Positions 1,160 through 21,171 of a DNA stretch of 24,816 bases are shown here, piece after piece. The translations under genes were made by a program, and so were the position numbers. The stretch is from assembly GCA_027686065.1 (NCBI GenBank), contig JAQCTH010000054.1, positions 1 to 24,816 of the forward strand. Direction: 5' to 3'. This stretch comes from Clostridiaceae bacterium AF10-41. GTDB taxonomy: Bacteria; Bacillota; Clostridia; Clostridiales; Clostridiaceae. The notes below the pieces were generated by a model, which was not told the DNA's origin, ran no database searches, and saw nothing but the letters and a program-made list of their open reading frames with translations. The number at the start of each line of letters is the position of its first letter. The first letter of the stretch is position 1.

Positions 1160-1210
1160 AAAACTATTTAAAGCCTCTAAAAGCCAAGAAAACTGTAGAA
1201 TTAACCAAAG

Positions 1211-1235
1211 TGATAAAGGGTTATCAAAATGATAA
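1211..1235. promoter_or_regulatory. Proximal GATA-like dyad array upstream of ygeY
   Basis: Three half-sites in a row, TGATAA-N4-TTATCA-N3-TGATAA, have centres 9 to 10 bases apart, about one helical turn. They lie roughly 115-140 bases upstream of the sigma-54 -12 element, a usual distance for activator sites. The same bases also form the terminator-like stem at 1213-1243, so the symmetry may serve termination, activator binding, or both. Confidence 0.4.
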
Positions 1236-1248
1236 TCCTTTATTTTTT
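1213..1248 (+). terminator. Rho-independent terminator after the alpha/beta hydrolase
   Basis: A 14-bp stem (1213-1226 with 1230-1243, one G-U pair) with a three-base AAA loop is followed by six T residues (1243-1248). It lies 115 bases after the stop codon of the hydrolase gene. Confidence 0.65.
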
Positions 1249-1334: not shown

Positions 1335-1351
1335 TTGGCATGAATTTTGCT
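1335..1351 (+). promoter_or_regulatory. Sigma-54 (RpoN) promoter of the ygeY-ygeW-arcC-ygeX operon
   Basis: TTGGCATG-AATT-TTGCT matches the sigma-54 consensus TTGGCACG-N4-TTGCW at all but one position. The invariant GG (1337-1338) and GC (1349-1350) have the required ten bases between them. Transcription would start near 1361-1363, leaving a leader of about 63 bases before the ribosome binding site at 1411 and the ATG at 1425. Confidence 0.8.
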
Positions 1352-1424
1352 TAGTATATAAATGAAGTTTAGAATAAAAATATTTAAAATTAAATACATT
1401 AGTAAAGATAAGGGGGAAAAGAAT

Positions 1425-2741
1425 ATGGATTTTAAAAATATTAAATTACAAGCAGAGGGATATGAAGTTCAAATGACTAAATTCTTAAGAGATTTGGTTG
1501 CTATTCCTGGAGAAAGCTGTGAAGAAAAAGGTGTTGTTGAACGTATAGCTGAAGAAATGAGAGCTGTAGGTTTTGATAAAGTTGAAATAGACCCACAAGG
1601 TAATGTTTTAGGATATATGGGAGCAGGAGAAACATTAATAGGATTTGATGCTCATATTGATACAGTTGGTATAGGAAACAGAGGTAACTGGAATTTTGAC
1701 CCATATGAAGGATATGAAACAGAAACTGAAATAGGTGGACGTGGTACTTCTGACCAATTAGGCGGAATTGTTTCATCTGTTTATGGTGCAAAAATAATGA
1801 AAGATTTAGGACTTTTAAATGAAAAATATACAGCATTAGTTGTTGGATCAGTTCAAGAAGAAGACTGCGATGGACTTTGCTGGGAATATATAATTAAGGA
1901 AGATAAAGTAAGACCAGAATTTGTAGTGTCTACAGAACCAACAGATGGTGGTATATATAGAGGACAAAGAGGACGTATGGAGATACGTGTTGATGTTCAA
2001 GGAGTTTCATGTCATGGTTCCGCTCCAGAAAGAGGAGATAATGCAATTTATAAAATGGCTGAAATATTAACTAATGTTCGTGACCTTAACGAAAATGATG
2101 CAGCTGATGATAAAGAAATTAAAGGCTTAGTAAAAATGTTAGATGAAAAATATAATCCAGAATATAAAGAAGCTAACTTTTTAGGAAGAGGTACAGTTAC
2201 AACTTCTGAAATTTTCTTTACTTCACCAAGCCGTTGTGCAGTTGCTGATTCATGCTCAATTTCATTAGACCGTCGTATGACTGCAGGTGAAACTTGGGAG
2301 AGCTGCTTAGAAGAAATTCGTGAGCTTCCAGCTGTTAAAAAGTATAATGCAACAGTAAGTATGTATAACTATGATAGACCAAGTTATACAGGTTTAGTAT
2401 ATCCAATTGAATGTTACTTCCCAACTTGGGTAATTCCAGAAGATCATATTGTAACAAAGGCAATGGAAGAATCATATAAGGGGCTTTATGGAACAACAAG
2501 AAGTGGTGCTGCTGTAACTGAAGAAATGAGAAAAGCACGCCCTCTTACTGATAAATGGACATTCTCAACAAATGGTGTTTCAATAATGGGACGTAATGGA
2601 ATACCTGTAATAGGATTTGGACCTGGTGCAGAAGCACAGGCACATGCTCCTAATGAAAAAACTTGGAAAGAAGATTTAGTGAAGTGTGCTGCTGTTTATG
2701 CTGCATTACCAACAATTTACTGTGATAATAAAGATAAATAA
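1425..2741 (+). CDS. ygeY: YgeY-family M20 metallo-hydrolase (selenium/purine-cluster type)
   Basis: 438 residues from the ATG at 1425, chosen because AGGGGG at 1411-1416 is correctly spaced and the in-frame ATG at 1362 falls at the predicted sigma-54 transcription start. It is an M20 di-zinc amidohydrolase. Ligands are visible: His77 and Asp79 (AHIDT), bridging Asp110 (RGTSDQ), Glu145/Glu146 (QEED), Glu171 (STEP) and His407 (QAHAPNE). [12 protein letters not shown] near 196-207 belongs to the lid/dimer domain. In E. coli the homologue lies in the ygeWXY cluster for anaerobic purine/urate breakdown; it is thought to cleave a ureido or peptide-like intermediate, but the exact substrate is unsettled. 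It is first in the operon. Half of its arginine codons are CGT/CGC, whereas ygeW and the carbamate kinase gene next to it use only AGA/AGG, which hints at a separate origin or strong translational selection. Confidence 0.92.
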
Positions 2742-2820
2742 AAAAATATAATATAGGTTAAATTTAAAAATCAAAATAAAATCAAAATAAAATTAAAATA
2801 TGAAGGGTAGGAATATTAAG

Positions 2821-4014
2821 ATGGCTTTAATGGACAAATATATTAATAAACTTAACGAATTAGATTTTTCAAAGATGCATAATGACGATTTTATGTTAAC
2901 TTGGGAAAAGAGTGATGATGAATTACAAGCTGTATTCACAGTTGCAGAGGCATTGAGAACTTTAAGAGAAAACAATATTTCATCAAAGATATTTGATAGT
3001 GGTCTTGGAATATCCTTATTTAGAGATAACTCTACAAGAACAAGATTTAGCTTTGCATCAGCTTGTAACCTTTTAGGTTTAGAAGTACAAGACTTGGATG
3101 AAGGAAAATCTCAAGTAGCTCATGGAGAAACAGTTAGAGAAACTGCTAACATGGTTTCATTTATGGCAGATGTTATAGGTATTAGAGATGATATGTATAT
3201 CGGAAAAGGAAATACTTACATGAGAGAAGTATCAAAGGCTGTAAGAGAAGGGCATGAAGAAGGAACATTAGAACAAATTCCTACTCTTGTTAATTTACAA
3301 TGTGATATAGACCATCCTACTCAAGCTATGGCAGATGCACTTCATTTAATAAACGAGTTTGGTGGTGTAGAAAACTTAAAAGGTAAGAAAGTTGCTATGT
3401 CTTGGGCATATTCTCCATCATATGGTAAACCATTATCAGTTCCTCAAGGAATAATTGGATTATTAACAAGATTCGGAATGGATGTTGTTTTAGCTCATCC
3501 AGAAGGATATGAAGTAATGCCAGAAGTTGAAGAAGTAGCTAAAAAGAATGCTGAACTTTCAGGTGGATCATTTACTAAAACTAACTCAATGGAAGAAGCA
3601 TTTAAAGATGCGGACATAGTGTATCCAAAGAGCTGGGCTCCGTTTGTTGCTATGGAAAAGAGAACTGAATTATATGGTAATGGAGATTTTGATGGAATAA
3701 AAGCTTTAGAAAAAGAATTATTGGCACATAATGCTGAACATAAAGATTGGCAATGTACTGAAGAGTTAATGAAGACAACTAAGGATGGAAAGGCTTTATA
3801 CCTACACTGCTTACCAGCAGATATTACAGGTGTTAGCTGTGAAGTTGGAGAAGTGGATGCTTCAGTATTTGATAGATACAGAAAGCCATTATATAAAGAA
3901 GCTAGCTATAAGCCATATGCTATAGCAGCTATGATATTCTTAAGCAAAGTAAAAAATCCACAAGAAGTTTTAGCTAAACTAGAAGCTGAAACTAAGGAAA
4001 GACAAGTTAAATAA
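2821..4014 (+). CDS. ygeW: Knotted carbamoyltransferase YgeW
   Basis: 397 residues from the ATG at 2821, eight bases after GGGTAGGA; this matches the E. coli length of about 396 and rejects the ATG at 2800, which lies before the ribosome binding site. The protein aligns almost throughout with E. coli YgeW as I recall it. Visible motifs are STRT at 71-74 (carbamoyl-phosphate site), HGETVRET at 101-108, HPTQ at 165-168, a long proline/tyrosine stretch near 197-209 (AYSPSYGKPLSVPQG) typical of YgeW, and HCLP at 329-332. The family is a trefoil-knotted transcarbamylase whose physiological substrate is not firmly established. With a carbamate kinase immediately downstream, it probably runs in the phosphorolytic direction, releasing carbamoyl phosphate from a ureido acid. 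All its arginines are AGA-coded. Confidence 0.95.
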   Translation: MALMDKYINKLNELDFSKMHNDDFMLTWEKSDDELQAVFTVAEALRTLRENNISSKIFDSGLGISLFRDNSTRTRFSFASACNLLGLEVQDLDEGKSQVAHGETVRETANMVSFMADVIGIRDDMYIGKGNTYMREVSKAVREGHEEGTLEQIPTLVNLQCDIDHPTQAMADALHLINEFGGVENLKGKKVAMSWAYSPSYGKPLSVPQGIIGLLTRFGMDVVLAHPEGYEVMPEVEEVAKKNAELSGGSFTKTNSMEEAFKDADIVYPKSWAPFVAMEKRTELYGNGDFDGIKALEKELLAHNAEHKDWQCTEELMKTTKDGKALYLHCLPADITGVSCEVGEVDASVFDRYRKPLYKEASYKPYAIAAMIFLSKVKNPQEVLAKLEAETKERQVK

Positions 4015-4050
4015 TATAATTTAGATGTTATATTTAGAATAAACACACTA

Positions 4051-4086
4051 ATGGGCTTTTATTCAGTTTATTGAATAAGGGCCCAT
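4051..4086 (+). other. Stem-loop between ygeW and arcC
   Basis: Fifteen paired bases (4051-4065 with 4072-4086, two of them G-U) enclose a six-base loop. There is no T-run afterwards, so it is not a standard terminator. It lies 40 bases before the carbamate kinase start and could be an mRNA processing or stability element that tunes expression within the operon. Confidence 0.5.
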
Positions 4087-4126
4087 GCAATATAAAAATA
4101 AATCCAAATTAATAGGGAGAGAAATT

Positions 4127-5056
4127 ATGAAAAAGAAAATAGTAATAGCATTAGGTGGGAATGCATTAGGAAATAATTTAGAAGAACAAATGGGTGCTGT
4201 TAAATCAACAGCAAGAGCTATTGTGGATTTAATTGAAGAAGGACATGATGTGGTAATATCTCATGGAAATGGACCTCAAGTAGGAATGATAAATCTTGCT
4301 ATGGATGCATTAACGAAATCAAATTATAAATACTCATCAATTCCAATGTCTGTATGTGTGGCTATGAGTCAAGGATATGTAGGATATGACTTGCAAAATG
4401 CTCTTAGAGAAGAATTGTTAAACAGGAATATAGATAAATCAGTAGCAACAATTGTTACTCAAGTTGAAGTAGATAAAGATGATAAAGCTTTTAGTAATCC
4501 AACTAAGCCAATTGGAAGTTTCATGACTAAAGATGAAGCAGAGTCTTTAATTGCAAAGGGTGAAAATGTAGTTGAAGATTCAGGAAGAGGATATAGAAGG
4601 GTTGTTGCATCACCAAGACCAAAAAGTATTATAGAAATTGATACAATTAGAAGTTTAGTAAATTCTGGACAAGTTGTTATAGCATGTGGCGGTGGTGGAA
4701 TTCCAGTAGTGAAAGAAGGAAACCATCTAAAAGGCGCTAGCGCAGTTATAGATAAAGATTTTGCTAGTGCTACATTAGCTAAAGAATTAGATGCTGATTT
4801 TCTAATTATATTAACAGCTGTAGAAAAGGCAGCTATAAATTATGGTAAAGAGAATGAAAAATGGCTTGATGATGTTACAGTTGAGGAAATGACTAAGTAT
4901 GTAGAAGAGGGACATTTTGCCCCTGGATCAATGAAACCTAAAGTAGAGGCAGGAATAGAATTTGCATCTTCTAAAGAAGGAAGATATGCACTTATTACTT
5001 TACTTGAAAAAGCTAAAGATGGAATTTTAGGTAAGACAGGAACAAGAATAAAATAA
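4127..5056 (+). CDS. arcC: Carbamate kinase
   Basis: 309 residues from the ATG at 4127, which follows AGGGAGAG; the upstream in-frame ATG at 4085 is inside a stem-loop and lacks a ribosome binding site. It is a member of the amino-acid kinase fold. Visible motifs are ALGGNAL at the N-terminus, SHGNGPQVG near residue 47, ACGGGGIPVV in the middle, DKDFASATLA (nucleotide/substrate binding) and a KTGT-like C-terminus. The enzyme converts carbamoyl phosphate plus ADP to ATP, ammonia and CO2 in the cytoplasm. It follows the carbamoyltransferase and precedes ygeX by 18 bases, so it is very likely the energy-yielding step of this operon (equivalent to E. coli YqeA). A role in the arginine deiminase pathway is less likely because no arcA or arcB is present. 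Confidence 0.95.
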   Translation: MKKKIVIALGGNALGNNLEEQMGAVKSTARAIVDLIEEGHDVVISHGNGPQVGMINLAMDALTKSNYKYSSIPMSVCVAMSQGYVGYDLQNALREELLNRNIDKSVATIVTQVEVDKDDKAFSNPTKPIGSFMTKDEAESLIAKGENVVEDSGRGYRRVVASPRPKSIIEIDTIRSLVNSGQVVIACGGGGIPVVKEGNHLKGASAVIDKDFASATLAKELDADFLIILTAVEKAAINYGKENEKWLDDVTVEEMTKYVEEGHFAPGSMKPKVEAGIEFASSKEGRYALITLLEKAKDGILGKTGTRIK

Positions 5057-5074
5057 GCTCAAGGGGGAGAAGTA

Positions 5075-6289
5075 ATGTCTGAAAAAATTCAATGGAAAGA
5101 AAATACCATGCCAAAGAATAAAAAAGATGGTGACTTAGACTTTTTAAATATAGATGAAATAAATAAAGCAAGAAACTTTCATAAAAGTTTCCCAGAATAT
5201 AGTGTGACACCATTAGTTAATTTAGAAAATTTAAGTAAGAGATTAGGTTTAAAAGGAATATATTTAAAAGATGAATCTTATAGATTTGGATTAAATGCAT
5301 TTAAAGTTTTAGGTGGTTCTTATTCAATGGGAAAATATTTAGCACAAAGATTGAATAAGGATATTGCTGAGTTACCATATGAAAAACTAACATCAGAAGA
5401 GGTTAAAAGTGAATTGGGAGAAATAACATTTGTAACTGCAACTGATGGAAATCACGGAAGAGGAGTTGCATGGACTGCTAATAGATTGAAACAGAAATCA
5501 GTAGTATATATGCCTAAAGGATCTTCACTAATAAGATTAGAAAATATAAGAAAAGAAGGAGCAGAAGCTTCAATTACTGATATGAATTATGATGATGCTG
5601 TAAGACTTGCAGCAAAATATGCAGAAGAACATAACGGAGTGGTAGTTCAAGATACAGCTTGGGAAGGTTATGAAGAAATACCAGCATGGATAATGCAAGG
5701 CTATGGAACTATGGGACTTGAAGCATTAGAACAATTAAGAAATGATTATAATGTAGAAAAACCAACTCATATATTCCTACAAGCAGGAGTAGGCTCTCTT
5801 GCAGGAGGAATTCAAGGATTCTTTGCATCAGTATTTGGAGAAAATTGTCCAACAACTGTTGTAGTAGAAGCAAAAGAAGCAGCATGTTATTATGAATCAG
5901 CAATAGCAAATGATGGAAATCCAAGAGCAGTTGGTGGGGATATGCCAACAATAATGGCTGGACTTGCATGTGGAGAGGTTAATATAACAGGGTTTGAAGT
6001 GTTAAAAAATCACTCAAAAGTTTTTGTTTCAGCTCCAAATTATGTTGCAGCAAATGGAATGAGGGTTCTTGGAAATCCTTTAAATGGCGATAATAAGGTT
6101 ATATCTGGAGAATCAGGAGCTGTTACATTAGGATTAGTATATGAATTAATGACAAATCCAGAATATAAAGATTTAAAGGAATCTATTAGCTTAGATGAAA
6201 ACTCAAGGGTATTATTATTTAGTACTGAAGGAGATACAGATCCAGATAAGTACAGAGAGATTGTTTGGGAAGGAAGCTACAATAGATAA
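5075..6289 (+). CDS. ygeX: 2,3-diaminopropionate ammonia-lyase
   Basis: 404 residues, with a strong AAGGGGGAGA site (5061-5070) just before the ATG. It is a fold type II PLP enzyme. Lys77 in NAFKVLGG is the Schiff-base lysine; TDGNHGRG near 123-130 binds the cofactor and contributes Asp124; Asp193 in VVQDTAW fits the second catalytic Asp of the E. coli enzyme; AGVGSLAGG at 237-245 is the phosphate loop. The reaction splits 2,3-diaminopropionate into pyruvate and two ammonia in the cytoplasm. The length agrees with E. coli YgeX (about 398). It is last in the ygeY-ygeW-arcC-ygeX operon and is followed by a strong terminator. Two-carbon-skeleton recovery as pyruvate, plus ATP from carbamate kinase, makes the operon a fermentative module. 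Confidence 0.95.
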   Translation: MSEKIQWKENTMPKNKKDGDLDFLNIDEINKARNFHKSFPEYSVTPLVNLENLSKRLGLKGIYLKDESYRFGLNAFKVLGGSYSMGKYLAQRLNKDIAELPYEKLTSEEVKSELGEITFVTATDGNHGRGVAWTANRLKQKSVVYMPKGSSLIRLENIRKEGAEASITDMNYDDAVRLAAKYAEEHNGVVVQDTAWEGYEEIPAWIMQGYGTMGLEALEQLRNDYNVEKPTHIFLQAGVGSLAGGIQGFFASVFGENCPTTVVVEAKEAACYYESAIANDGNPRAVGGDMPTIMAGLACGEVNITGFEVLKNHSKVFVSAPNYVAANGMRVLGNPLNGDNKVISGESGAVTLGLVYELMTNPEYKDLKESISLDENSRVLLFSTEGDTDPDKYREIVWEGSYNR

Positions 6290-6341
6290 TTGATAGTGGA
6301 GAGCACTAATTGATAATTTAGAATAGACAATAGATAATCTA

Positions 6342-6378
6342 AGAAGTAATTCAGAGTAGCTGAATTACTTCTTTTTTT
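6342..6378 (+). terminator. Terminator of the ygeY-ygeX operon
   Basis: A perfect 13-bp stem (6342-6354 with 6360-6372) with a five-base loop is followed by a run of seven T residues (6372-6378). The rest of the 336-base gap before the ABC gene holds only A/T-rich sequence and the promoter at 6555-6587. Confidence 0.9.
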
Positions 6379-6554
6379 AAAAGTTTTTCGCTTTTCAAAT
6401 TTTCAACTATTAATTCTTAATTTTTTTATAAATTTGGTTATAATGTTAAGTATAATAACAATTTAGGACAGAAAACATTAAGGTTATTTCTTAGGATTTT
6501 ATATAAGGGAATAAATGACTAACTTAATAAAAATTAAATAAATTTAATTTTTAA

Positions 6555-6587
6555 GTTCATATTCAGTTCATATAAATAAAATATTAT
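6555..6587 (+). promoter_or_regulatory. Promoter with response-regulator-like direct repeat
   Basis: GTTCATAT occurs at 6555-6562 and again at 6566-6573, an 11-base period. OmpR/PhoB-type regulators usually bind such one-turn direct repeats as dimers. TATTAT at 6582-6587 fits a -10 box; the -35 position (about 6559-6564) falls inside the repeats, as in activator-dependent promoters. The OmpR-type regulator encoded at 9079 is the natural candidate. Confidence 0.5.
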
Positions 6588-6625
6588 AAACATATCGTAG
6601 CAAAATTTATTGTAGGAGGAAAAGT

Positions 6626-15748: not shown

Positions 15749-16507
15749 ATGTCCATTAACTATAAGAAATTCGTGCCACGACCAGGATTGGTAAATAAGC
15801 AAGGCCGTTTACCTGATCCATCAGAATTAGTTTGTGTAGAAGTTCCGAAGGTTTTTGACCAATGCTTAATAAAGAGATGCTTAGTATATGCTGAAGGACC
15901 AGATACTTTAACTACAGATGAAGAGTTAAGGAGCGATCCAATAGCCAATATTAAGAGATATATTTCTAGCAGGGACTTTAGAGTAAGACTATTATCAATA
16001 GATAAGATTCCTCTTAGAGGAGATCCTAATTTTAAAAAATTAGTTCTTAATTATGTAATTAGTTTTTATGCAGATTATATTGATGATAACGGAGCAACTC
16101 AAAGCGAATTCTACGAAATTAATAGAACTGACATTATTGGAAGATTCTACTGTCCAGATTCTATAGCACAAATTTCATCAAGCAGTGAAGATGATGTTAT
16201 GTGCGATGAATCAAATATAATTAAGCTTGAAATGGTAGCAGAAGCATTAAATGGAGAAATAACAGAAGATGAAGCTGGAAATTTAGTTTTAGATATAACT
16301 TTAGGTTACTTTATAGTAGTTAAATGTCAACTTATAGTTCAATTATTAATTCCAGCTTATGATTACTGCCCAACACCAAGAGAAGCTTGCGAAGAAGAGC
16401 CAGAAGAAGATCCATGTGAAAGATTTGAAAGAGCTCCAGTACCTAAGTTCTACCCAGATCAGAACTTAGAACCATTATTCCAAGAATGTGATGGAACTGA
16501 AGTATAA
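15749..16507 (+). CDS. Cysteine-rich putative spore coat/exosporium protein, copy 1
   Basis: 252 residues after AAAGGAG, with no signal peptide or membrane segment. There are ten cysteines, at 29, 39, 44, 135, 152, 193, 207, 214, 223 and 247. The N-terminal stretch with VCVEVPKVFDQC and KRCLVY, then beta-rich segments ending in ADY, NRTD and YCP, recall clostridial spore proteins of the DUF3794/SPOCS group; this is resemblance, not an established match. The tail is acidic (EEEPEEDP) and ends in a PKFYPDQNL segment. The copy at 20407-21171 on the other strand is about three quarters identical by eye. A sigma-K-like promoter 56 bases upstream implies late mother-cell expression and a place on the spore surface. 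The DUF4489-type gene follows with no terminator between, so they may form one operon. Confidence 0.78.
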   Translation: MSINYKKFVPRPGLVNKQGRLPDPSELVCVEVPKVFDQCLIKRCLVYAEGPDTLTTDEELRSDPIANIKRYISSRDFRVRLLSIDKIPLRGDPNFKKLVLNYVISFYADYIDDNGATQSEFYEINRTDIIGRFYCPDSIAQISSSSEDDVMCDESNIIKLEMVAEALNGEITEDEAGNLVLDITLGYFIVVKCQLIVQLLIPAYDYCPTPREACEEEPEEDPCERFERAPVPKFYPDQNLEPLFQECDGTEV

Positions 16508-20406: not shown

Positions 20407-21171
20407 CTAATCCAATTCATCTTCACATGAACAATCAGGATCTGGGAATAATGGGTCTAAGTTTTGATCTGGATAGAACTTAGGTACTGGAGCCCTTTCA
20501 AATATTTCACATGGATCATCTTCTGGTTCATCAATACAAGGCATTTTTGGAACTGGACAATAGTCGTAAGCTGGAATCAATAATTGAACTACAAGCTCAC
20601 ATTTAACAACAATATAATAACCTAAAGTAATATCTAATACTTCATTACAATGTTCATCTTTAAGTATTTCACCATTTAATGCATCTGCCACCATTTCTAG
20701 CTTAATCAAATTGTTATCACAAGGTTCATCTTCTAAAGTAGTGGTTGCTTGAGAAAGTGATTCTGGACAATAGAATTTACCTATTACATCTGTTCTGTTA
20801 ATTTCGTAAAATTCGCTCTTAGTTCTGCCATCACAATCAATGTAGTCTGCATAGAAGGAAATCATGTAGTGTAGCACTATTCTTTTAAAACATGGATCCT
20901 TCTTTAGTGGAATTTTGTCAACATGTAGTAGAGTTATTTTAAAATCTCTACTTGAAATATACCTCTTAGGGTCAGTAAGAGGGTCACTTCTTAATTCGCA
21001 ATCAGTTGTATCGGTATCAGGTCCTTCACAGTAAACAAGGCATCTTTTAATTAAACATTGGTCAAAGACCTTAGGAACTTCCACACAAACTAATTCAGCT
21101 GGATCAGGTAATCGGCCTTGTTTGTTCACTAGTCCAGGACGAGGCACGAATTTTTTAAAGTTAATGGACAT
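20407..21171 (-). CDS. Cysteine-rich putative spore coat/exosporium protein, copy 2
   Basis: 254 residues on the minus strand behind AAAGGAGG. It is a paralog of the protein at 15749-16507: the first 50 residues differ at only three positions, and the whole is about three quarters identical by eye. It has 16 cysteines against 10; the extra ones include 48, 58, 94, 113 and 175, where copy 1 has Ala, Glu, Asn, Asp and Gly. The C-terminus ends with DPDCSCEDELD. The acidic, proline-rich tail and the PKFYPDQNL segment are kept. The gain of cysteines suggests more disulfide cross-linking or metal binding. Its sigma-K-like promoter shares the -35 region with that of copy 1, so both are likely made late in the mother cell. 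The gene is divergent from the propeller/coiled-coil gene. Confidence 0.78.
   Translation of the reverse strand: MSINFKKFVPRPGLVNKQGRLPDPAELVCVEVPKVFDQCLIKRCLVYCEGPDTDTTDCELRSDPLTDPKRYISSRDFKITLLHVDKIPLKKDPCFKRIVLHYMISFYADYIDCDGRTKSEFYEINRTDVIGKFYCPESLSQATTTLEDEPCDNNLIKLEMVADALNGEILKDEHCNEVLDITLGYYIVVKCELVVQLLIPAYDYCPVPKMPCIDEPEDDPCEIFERAPVPKFYPDQNLDPLFPDPDCSCEDELD

Follow-up and report, generated by a model that had tools for sequence, protein, structure and literature searches.

The question raised by this locus is how four genes for reductive uric-acid degradation, found within a stretch of 24,816 nucleotides from Clostridiaceae bacterium AF10-41 (here called the window), are switched on. 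YgeY, YgeW, a carbamate kinase, and YgeX are encoded together, and all four proteins score above their NCBIfam cutoffs (Table 1). Gut bacteria remove uric acid by this pathway, which has also been overexpressed in probiotic Escherichia coli with gout in view (PMC12507026). In a biochemical study from 2025, YgeW is described as carrying out phosphorolysis of the 2-ureido group, and albizziin is converted to pyruvate by YgeY together with YgeX. Little was found on the transcriptional control of the pathway in the open-access literature searched. A sequence-only reading of the window had interpreted the genes as an activator-controlled operon with a sigma-54 promoter, and this interpretation is supported by the sequence comparisons reported here. 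Within the operon, inspection by eye showed an inverted repeat between ygeW and arcC (4051-4086; atgggctttt...aagggcccat); it lacks a T run and possibly acts in processing or stability. Farther along the window, two proteins of roughly 250 aa, encoded on opposite strands (15749-16507 and 20407-21171), were seen by eye to resemble each other (MSIN[YF]KKFVPRPGLVNKQGRLPDP...) and are perhaps spore-surface proteins.

Table 1. Features of the operon and of its upstream region (window coordinates)
Feature	Position	Strand	Basis
Distal candidate activator palindrome UAS1, TTATCAATTTGATAA, perfect TTATCA-N3-TGATAA	1145..1159	.	Perfect counterpart in 7/7 closest relatives
Degenerate candidate activator site UAS3, TAACCAAAGTGATAA, 19 bp from UAS2	1202..1216	.	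15/15 positions identical in 8 aligned sequences
Terminator-like hairpin, 15 pairs and T run, contains UAS2	1212..1244	+	-16.5 kcal/mol, z -3.41
Proximal candidate activator palindrome UAS2, TTATCAAAATGATAA	1221..1235	.	Perfect in 6/7 closest relatives, two mismatches in L022
Sigma-54 core promoter TTGGCATGAATTTTGCT (-24/-12)	1335..1351	+	Strict match, kept in relatives, Clostridiales consensus
Transcription start, predicted	1362..1362	+	Inferred from GC at 1349-1350
Ribosome binding site AGGGGG of ygeY	1411..1416	+	Read in the sequence; AGGGGG in 6/8 aligned sequences
ygeY, M20-family ureido hydrolase, 438 aa	1425..2741	+	TIGR03526, 682.8 bits (cutoff 321.5)
ygeW, knotted carbamoyltransferase, 397 aa	2821..4014	+	TIGR03316, 790.8 bits (cutoff 500)
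arcC-type carbamate kinase (YqeA role), 309 aa	4127..5056	+	TIGR00746, 391.6 bits (cutoff 358.25)
ygeX, 2,3-diaminopropionate ammonia-lyase, 404 aa	5075..6289	+	TIGR03528, 665.9 bits (cutoff 532.25)
Terminator-like hairpin at operon end, 14 pairs and T run	6341..6373	+	2 such sites in 2700-6600 versus 1.3 in shuffles

The classical sigma-54 consensus is TGGCAC-N5-TTGCA, and by the usual -24/-12 rule the transcript starts 12 bp past the GC. Upstream of ygeY, the sequence TTGGCATGAATTTTGCT matches the pattern TTGGCAY-N5-TTGCW without mismatch at its 12 specified positions, and the exact spacing of GG (1337-1338) and GC (1349-1350) claimed in the sequence-only reading is borne out. This is the sole strict match on either strand of the window (expected, 0.00; a match in 0 of 100 dinucleotide shuffles). 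It differs from the classical consensus at two positions and is identical to the Clostridiales consensus TTGGCATNNNNNTTGCT at all 12 specified positions (Nie et al. 2019, PMC6615313). The site noted in the sequence-only reading is confirmed. The count of 16 agreeing positions out of 17 given in that reading has no meaning, since five positions of the pattern are unspecified. From the GC and the spacing rule, transcription is predicted to start at about 1362, the same position as had been proposed. Between the end of the core and the ATG of ygeY lie 73 bp.

Conservation was followed in an alignment of the window with its seven closest relatives (L017 to L023; eight sequences, with a mean column identity of 64%). 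These relatives are not independent samples, and one of them, Clostridium sartagoforme AAU1 (L017), was taken as the same DNA as G001, the closest genome compared (48% of sampled 31-letter words in common and 92% identity over the promoter region). The sigma-54 site is kept in all seven, beginning 71 to 90 bp before the ygeY ATG, and no column varies in TTGGCA, TTGCT, UAS3 as a whole, or either half-site of UAS1. The constancy of TTGGCA and TTGCT, in an alignment of that mean identity, argues against a chance match with transcription of the operon from an ordinary sigma-70-type promoter or through read-through. A scan of 1080-1460 for sigma-70-type promoters did return one weak match (9/12, at 1246-1275), but a single match falls below the shuffle mean of 3.1 matches, on which ground a sigma-70 promoter for the operon was rejected, and a terminator-like hairpin separates the operon from the upstream gene. 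We regard this explanation as so improbable as to be negligible, and the putative sigma-54 promoter holds under the sequence tests applied.

The same relatives inform the choice of start codon. Translation of ygeY likely begins at the ATG at 1425, as had been claimed along with its ribosome binding site, since AGGGGG precedes this codon and the first start of the open reading frame scan is its counterpart in five of the seven relatives (L018 to L021 and L023). If transcription starts near 1362, translation from the ATG at that position would be leaderless; it was rejected as the ygeY start for this reason and because only L017 among the seven has an in-frame start at its counterpart; in L022 a start was found 18 bases upstream.

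Two perfect copies of the palindrome TTATCA-N3-TGATAA occur upstream of the promoter (UAS1 and UAS2) and none elsewhere in the window, with 0.01 expected. Together with the degenerate UAS3, which is paired with UAS2, they form a set of candidate activator sites that begin 190 (UAS1), 133 (UAS3), and 114 bp (UAS2) upstream of the sigma-54 core, the range in which such sites are found, mostly 100 to 250 bp away (Nie et al., PMC6615313). Neither these palindromes nor the prediction of the regulator DioR, published in 2019, had entered the sequence-only reading. The distance between the proximal palindrome and the promoter in the eight sequences is 93, 93, 93, 102, 103, 103, 113, and 114 bp. Because these values vary mostly in 10-bp steps, they suggest, for a set of related sequences, that the helical phase between palindrome and promoter has been kept.

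At the same time, UAS2 makes up the upper part of the stem of a 15-pair hairpin with a run of T's behind it. This hairpin likely terminates the upstream hydrolase gene. All 120 cells of the hairpin are paired across the eight sequences, two of the 15 pairs have changed on both sides, and in L022, where the DNA palindrome of UAS2 is spoilt, the RNA pairs survive as G-U. These observations suggest that the UAS2 block probably doubles as the terminator of the upstream gene.

The wider distribution of the arrangement was surveyed in 80 orthologous ygeY loci, with up to one mismatch allowed in the sigma-54 site and a gene start required within 260 bp downstream; sigma-54 sites inside genes on the same strand were counted only with a palindrome near. 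A noncoding sigma-54 site with upstream palindromes was found in 13 of the 80 loci. In the seven closest relatives this module precedes ygeY, and in six loci with a different gene order (L024, L026, L032, L033, L034, and L054) it precedes a gene that resembles ygeX, as judged by eye from the first residues; in L054 a second module stands ahead of another gene. Four loci (L029, L036, L083, and L095) have a noncoding sigma-54-like site with no palindromes, L036 being represented by 48 bp of upstream sequence, and L072 has a sigma-54-like site inside a gene with a two-mismatch palindrome. No qualifying site was found by the scan in the remaining 62 loci, which include many from Lachnospiraceae, Brachyspira, and Veillonella as well as C. 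beijerinckii HUN142. The alignment that the sequence-only reading had proposed as a check thus gives a divided answer: the site is kept in the seven closest relatives and in the six loci with ygeX first, but the module was not found in 67 of the 80 orthologous loci scanned. Conservation as judged from these sequences is therefore lineage-bound, and the predicted control is not universal for the pathway.

A sigma-54 promoter calls attention to rpoN and to an enhancer-binding protein, the two genes for which a genome search had been proposed. In G001, rpoN is present with all three sigma-54 Pfam domains, and it was also found in 45 of the 59 genomes sampled from the genus; a YgeV-like activator is likewise encoded in G001, as described below. 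The presence of both genes in the window's own genome is inferred from G001.

Strict sigma-54 sites number eight in G001, versus none for the reversed pattern. Three of the eight precede purine-type genes, namely, the ygeY operon, a Xan_ur_permease gene (PF00860), and a gene for a HyuA-like amidohydrolase (PF01979); the other five lie by PTS-type genes (four) and by a dehydrogenase gene (one), all named by eye. Amidohydrolases (PF01979) resembling SsnA and HyuA, also judged by eye, are encoded in this genome. A fourth purine-type promoter, picked by reading upstream sequence, has an imperfect sigma-54 site before a second ygeY (L116). With up to two mismatches allowed within 350 bp upstream, palindromes accompany all four purine-type promoters versus none of the five others, or three of three versus none of five when strict sigma-54 sites only are counted. 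The background at this threshold, these promoters included, is 37 palindromes in 82,259 bases of G001 stretches, or 0.16 per 350 bp. Each of the four promoters carries a pair 18 or 19 bp apart, that of the second ygeY with one mismatch in each member, and among the sigma-54 promoters of G001 perfect copies are found only at the ygeY operon. The perfect palindrome by itself occurs at five places in G001 versus three for the reversed control, so its rarity is not convincing. Three perfect copies (L120:1982, L121:2688, and L123:846) have no strict sigma-54 site in their stretch and may be chance occurrences, terminator stems, or unseen targets.

These distributions bear on a second alternative, in which the palindromes are only terminator stems or are bound by an unrelated repressor, the sigma-54 site being served by another activator. 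The location of UAS2 inside a T-run hairpin with pairing kept by two-sided changes would suit this alternative, as would the perfect palindromes of G001 away from strict sigma-54 sites, but UAS1 lies outside the sole terminator-like hairpin found in 1080-1460. Against it, too, the palindromes follow the purine-type sigma-54 promoters of G001 and are absent from the five others, they stand at the head of the operon even where a different gene comes first, and similar sites precede sigma-54 promoters in E. coli. A role as terminators only was rejected on the operon-head placement and the specificity for purine-type promoters, and the alternative as a whole appears very unlikely. The palindromes are better read as candidate activator sites.

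A search of G001 with PF00158 gave 13 matches: three were strong, three stood near 1e-40 (proteins of 762 to 914 aa), and seven were weak. The strong three were compared. One is a full-length YgeV orthologue of 587 aa, 40% identical to E. coli YgeV over 602 columns; its gene adjoins a permease gene, and it has the GAFTGA loop that contacts sigma-54. The second is a protein of 426 aa (contig C69) that aligns from YgeV residue 160 onward. The third, an AdhR-like protein encoded beside a dehydrogenase gene, aligns with 37% identity from residue 162 onward; it was rejected as the activator on this late beginning of the alignment and on its different recognition helix. Of the 25 clostridial YgeVs compared (L157, L158, L171, and L172 were left out), 22 have exactly the recognition helix of E. 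coli YgeV, LGIGIATLYRK. For both YgeVs, from G001 and E. coli, the top NCBIfam match is PrdR, which aligns along the AAA+ and C-terminal parts, and all 25 NCBIfam matches shown for each YgeV fall below their cutoffs. The N-terminal domain of the G001 protein had no Pfam match, and the N-terminal 265 residues of YgeV had no match in PDB by sequence at an E value of 0.1. Within this domain, a C-x2-C-x5-C motif (C84, C87, and C93 in E. coli) is invariant in the 26 sequences aligned (covering L125:4012-5787, L141 to L156, L159 to L162, L167 to L170, and L173), and the domain is possibly a metal or iron-sulfur sensor.

The association between activator and operator was examined with a composite of palindrome, 75 to 105 bp, and sigma-54 core, for which 68 genomes of the genus were scanned. 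It was present in 12 genomes (15 places in all), and the reversed control gave none. Fourteen of the 15 places were read, with the genes named by eye: ten precede ygeY, two precede a permease-like gene, and two have no gene start in the sequence available. Several appear to come from the same species as loci in the ygeY set. The YgeV N-terminal domain occurs in 22 of the 68 genomes, among them all 12 with the composite, and the composite is absent from the 46 genomes without the domain (Fisher test, 8.9e-8, with relatedness ignored). The flanks of ygeV were then considered in the YgeV-bearing genomes, allowing up to one mismatch in the palindrome and in the sigma-54 site. Of the ten YgeV genomes lacking the composite, nine have palindromes and a sigma-54 site in these flanks, and G068 does not. 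Both elements also flank all 15 of the more distant ygeV genes of the genus (L148 to L162) and five of seven ygeV loci of other genera, L171 and L172 having neither. No palindrome-promoter module was found beside the seven close ygeV genes (L141 to L147); ygeV is unlinked to the operon there, and the activator-operon link in the window's group therefore rests on co-occurrence. Among 391 genomes at the class level, the strict composite occurs in three, all of the same genus and with none found outside it, and some match to the YgeV domain occurs in 42, many of these matches being weak. Separately, a sigma-54-like sequence, ATGGCAT-N5-TTGCT, lies before ygeV in the C. sartagoforme group with no palindrome beside it (L115:5600-5860); it was seen in five of the seven close loci (L141, L142, L143, L145, and L146, the last on the minus strand of the locus), and autoregulation of ygeV is possible in this group.

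Because the recognition helix of a short paralogue in G001 is similar, full-length YgeV is to be read as a candidate activator. The paralogue (426 aa; L116:3881-5161), in which about 160 residues are missing from the N-terminal part of YgeV, might serve a sigma-54-dependent promoter in place of the full-length protein or together with it. Its recognition helix, LGIGLATLYRK, is nearly identical, and its gene follows the second ygeY with the palindrome pair and sigma-54-like site. This protein was nevertheless found in just seven of the 68 genomes at an E value below 1e-10; six of the 12 composite genomes are without it at that threshold, so it cannot account for all composites, whereas the YgeV N-terminal domain is present in all 12, and the E. 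coli YgeV is itself the long form. We consider a role of the paralogue in place of or beside full-length YgeV unlikely.

Full-length YgeV is thus our preferred candidate. Drawing on the promoter, the palindromes, their conservation, their co-occurrence with YgeV, the specificity of the G001 regulon, and the like sites in E. coli, we think it quite probable that positions 1145-1362 form a complete sigma-54 promoter and enhancer under a YgeV-type (DioR) activator. In the mechanism that we propose, the enhancer-binding protein, encoded elsewhere in the genome, would bind as dimers to the tandem UAS3 and UAS2 and to the distal UAS1, and three dimer sites would suit a hexamer. Looping of about 115 bp of DNA would bring the activator to the sigma-54 polymerase, where its AAA+ ATPase with the GAFTGA loop would open the closed complex at the core promoter, and transcription would proceed from near 1362. 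The predicted mRNA would encode ygeY-ygeW-arcC-ygeX, the last steps of anaerobic urate breakdown, in which ureido groups would be cleaved, one of them by phosphorolysis to yield carbamoyl phosphate for ATP, and diaminopropionate would be converted to pyruvate. The same activator would serve the three further purine-type promoters of G001, the terminator stem at UAS2 would insulate the operon from the upstream gene, and the inducer would presumably be a purine.

A much broader and more speculative idea, which we hold to be possible though doubtful, is that anaerobic purine breakdown is governed by YgeV as an ancient master switch, its operator TTATCA-N3-TGATAA having remained readable from Clostridia to E. 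coli even as the order of the genes, the head of the operon, and the position of the activator gene were reshuffled, and that the C-x2-C-x5-C motif belongs to a metal- or iron-sulfur-dependent sensor coupling purine supply to the absence of oxygen. If DioR is YgeV and its operator is the one defined here, the regulon could be read from genomes, and the sequence of an enhancer would have been kept across phyla though the genes were rearranged. YgeV has been named IsrR and given a role in indole signaling in E. coli (PMC9426417), and it would become a testable activator of the purine pathway.

The YgeV regulon of E. coli K-12 is one of the nearest systems for comparison. Sigma-54 sites have been mapped by ChIP before xdhA, ygeW, ygfK, and ygfT (Bonocora et al. 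2015, PMC4591121), ygeV/ygeW is listed in a genomic SELEX study of RpoN, and a YgeV iModulon is reported to contain xdhABC, ygeWXY, hyuA, ygfK, ssnA, ygfM, xdhD, ygfT, and uacT among others (2025 preprint, PMC12132413). In the one E. coli genome used here, a palindrome-like site lies 132 to 214 bp upstream of all four ChIP-mapped promoters of the uric-acid cluster, at -132 (xdhA), -214 and -185 (ygeW), -182 (ygfK), and -179 (ygfT). With up to two mismatches allowed, the 32-kb region holds seven sites, five of which are the ones just listed, compared with 1.1 for 60 shuffles. The two systems are alike in the activator family, in common pathway genes, in the sigma-54 promoters, and in the palindrome-like sites. 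They differ in gene order, which in E. coli is ygeW-ygeX-ygeY-hyuA-yqeA, in the activator gene, which adjoins the operon there (the sequence-only reading had placed ygeV beside ygeW), and in that four of the five E. coli sites are imperfect (two mismatches each), that of ygfK being perfect. With the same activator family and matching sites in E. coli, the on-switch seems, from these sequences, to have been retained between bacteria that are very far apart. The guess that the regulatory logic is shared between enterobacteria and Clostridium is strengthened by an operator-like site in both and by the conserved recognition helix.

Among clostridia, sigma-54 control of such operons has been predicted before. 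Nie, Dong, and Yang (2019, PMC6615313) described a predicted group of sigma-54 activators, DioR, in Clostridioides, Clostridium, and Desulfotomaculum, with the predicted targets dpaL-pyrC-argE, tdcF, yqeB, pbuX, ygeW-ygfK-ssnA-ygeY, dioR, and the yqeC-ygfJ-yqeB-xdhC operon and with a function entry of "Unknown"; this prediction and its purine content were noted in a study of C. difficile. The name YgeV was not found in the main text of PMC6615313. No mention of ygeY, purine, or DioR was found in a sigma-54 paper on C. beijerinckii; ygeY, ygeW, and ygeV are unnamed in a comparative sigma-54 paper from 2025; and no statement that YgeV is DioR, or that the operator is shared, was found in the open-access literature searched. 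Measured against the main text of PMC6615313, the present comparison would add that the activator is the orthologue of E. coli YgeV and that the operator is shared across phyla. The AAA+ core is common to YgeV and to enhancer-binding proteins of the PrdR, NtrC, and NifA types. The DioR regulon resembles the system described here in its pathway genes under predicted sigma-54 control and in a sigma-54 consensus with which the site of the window is identical.
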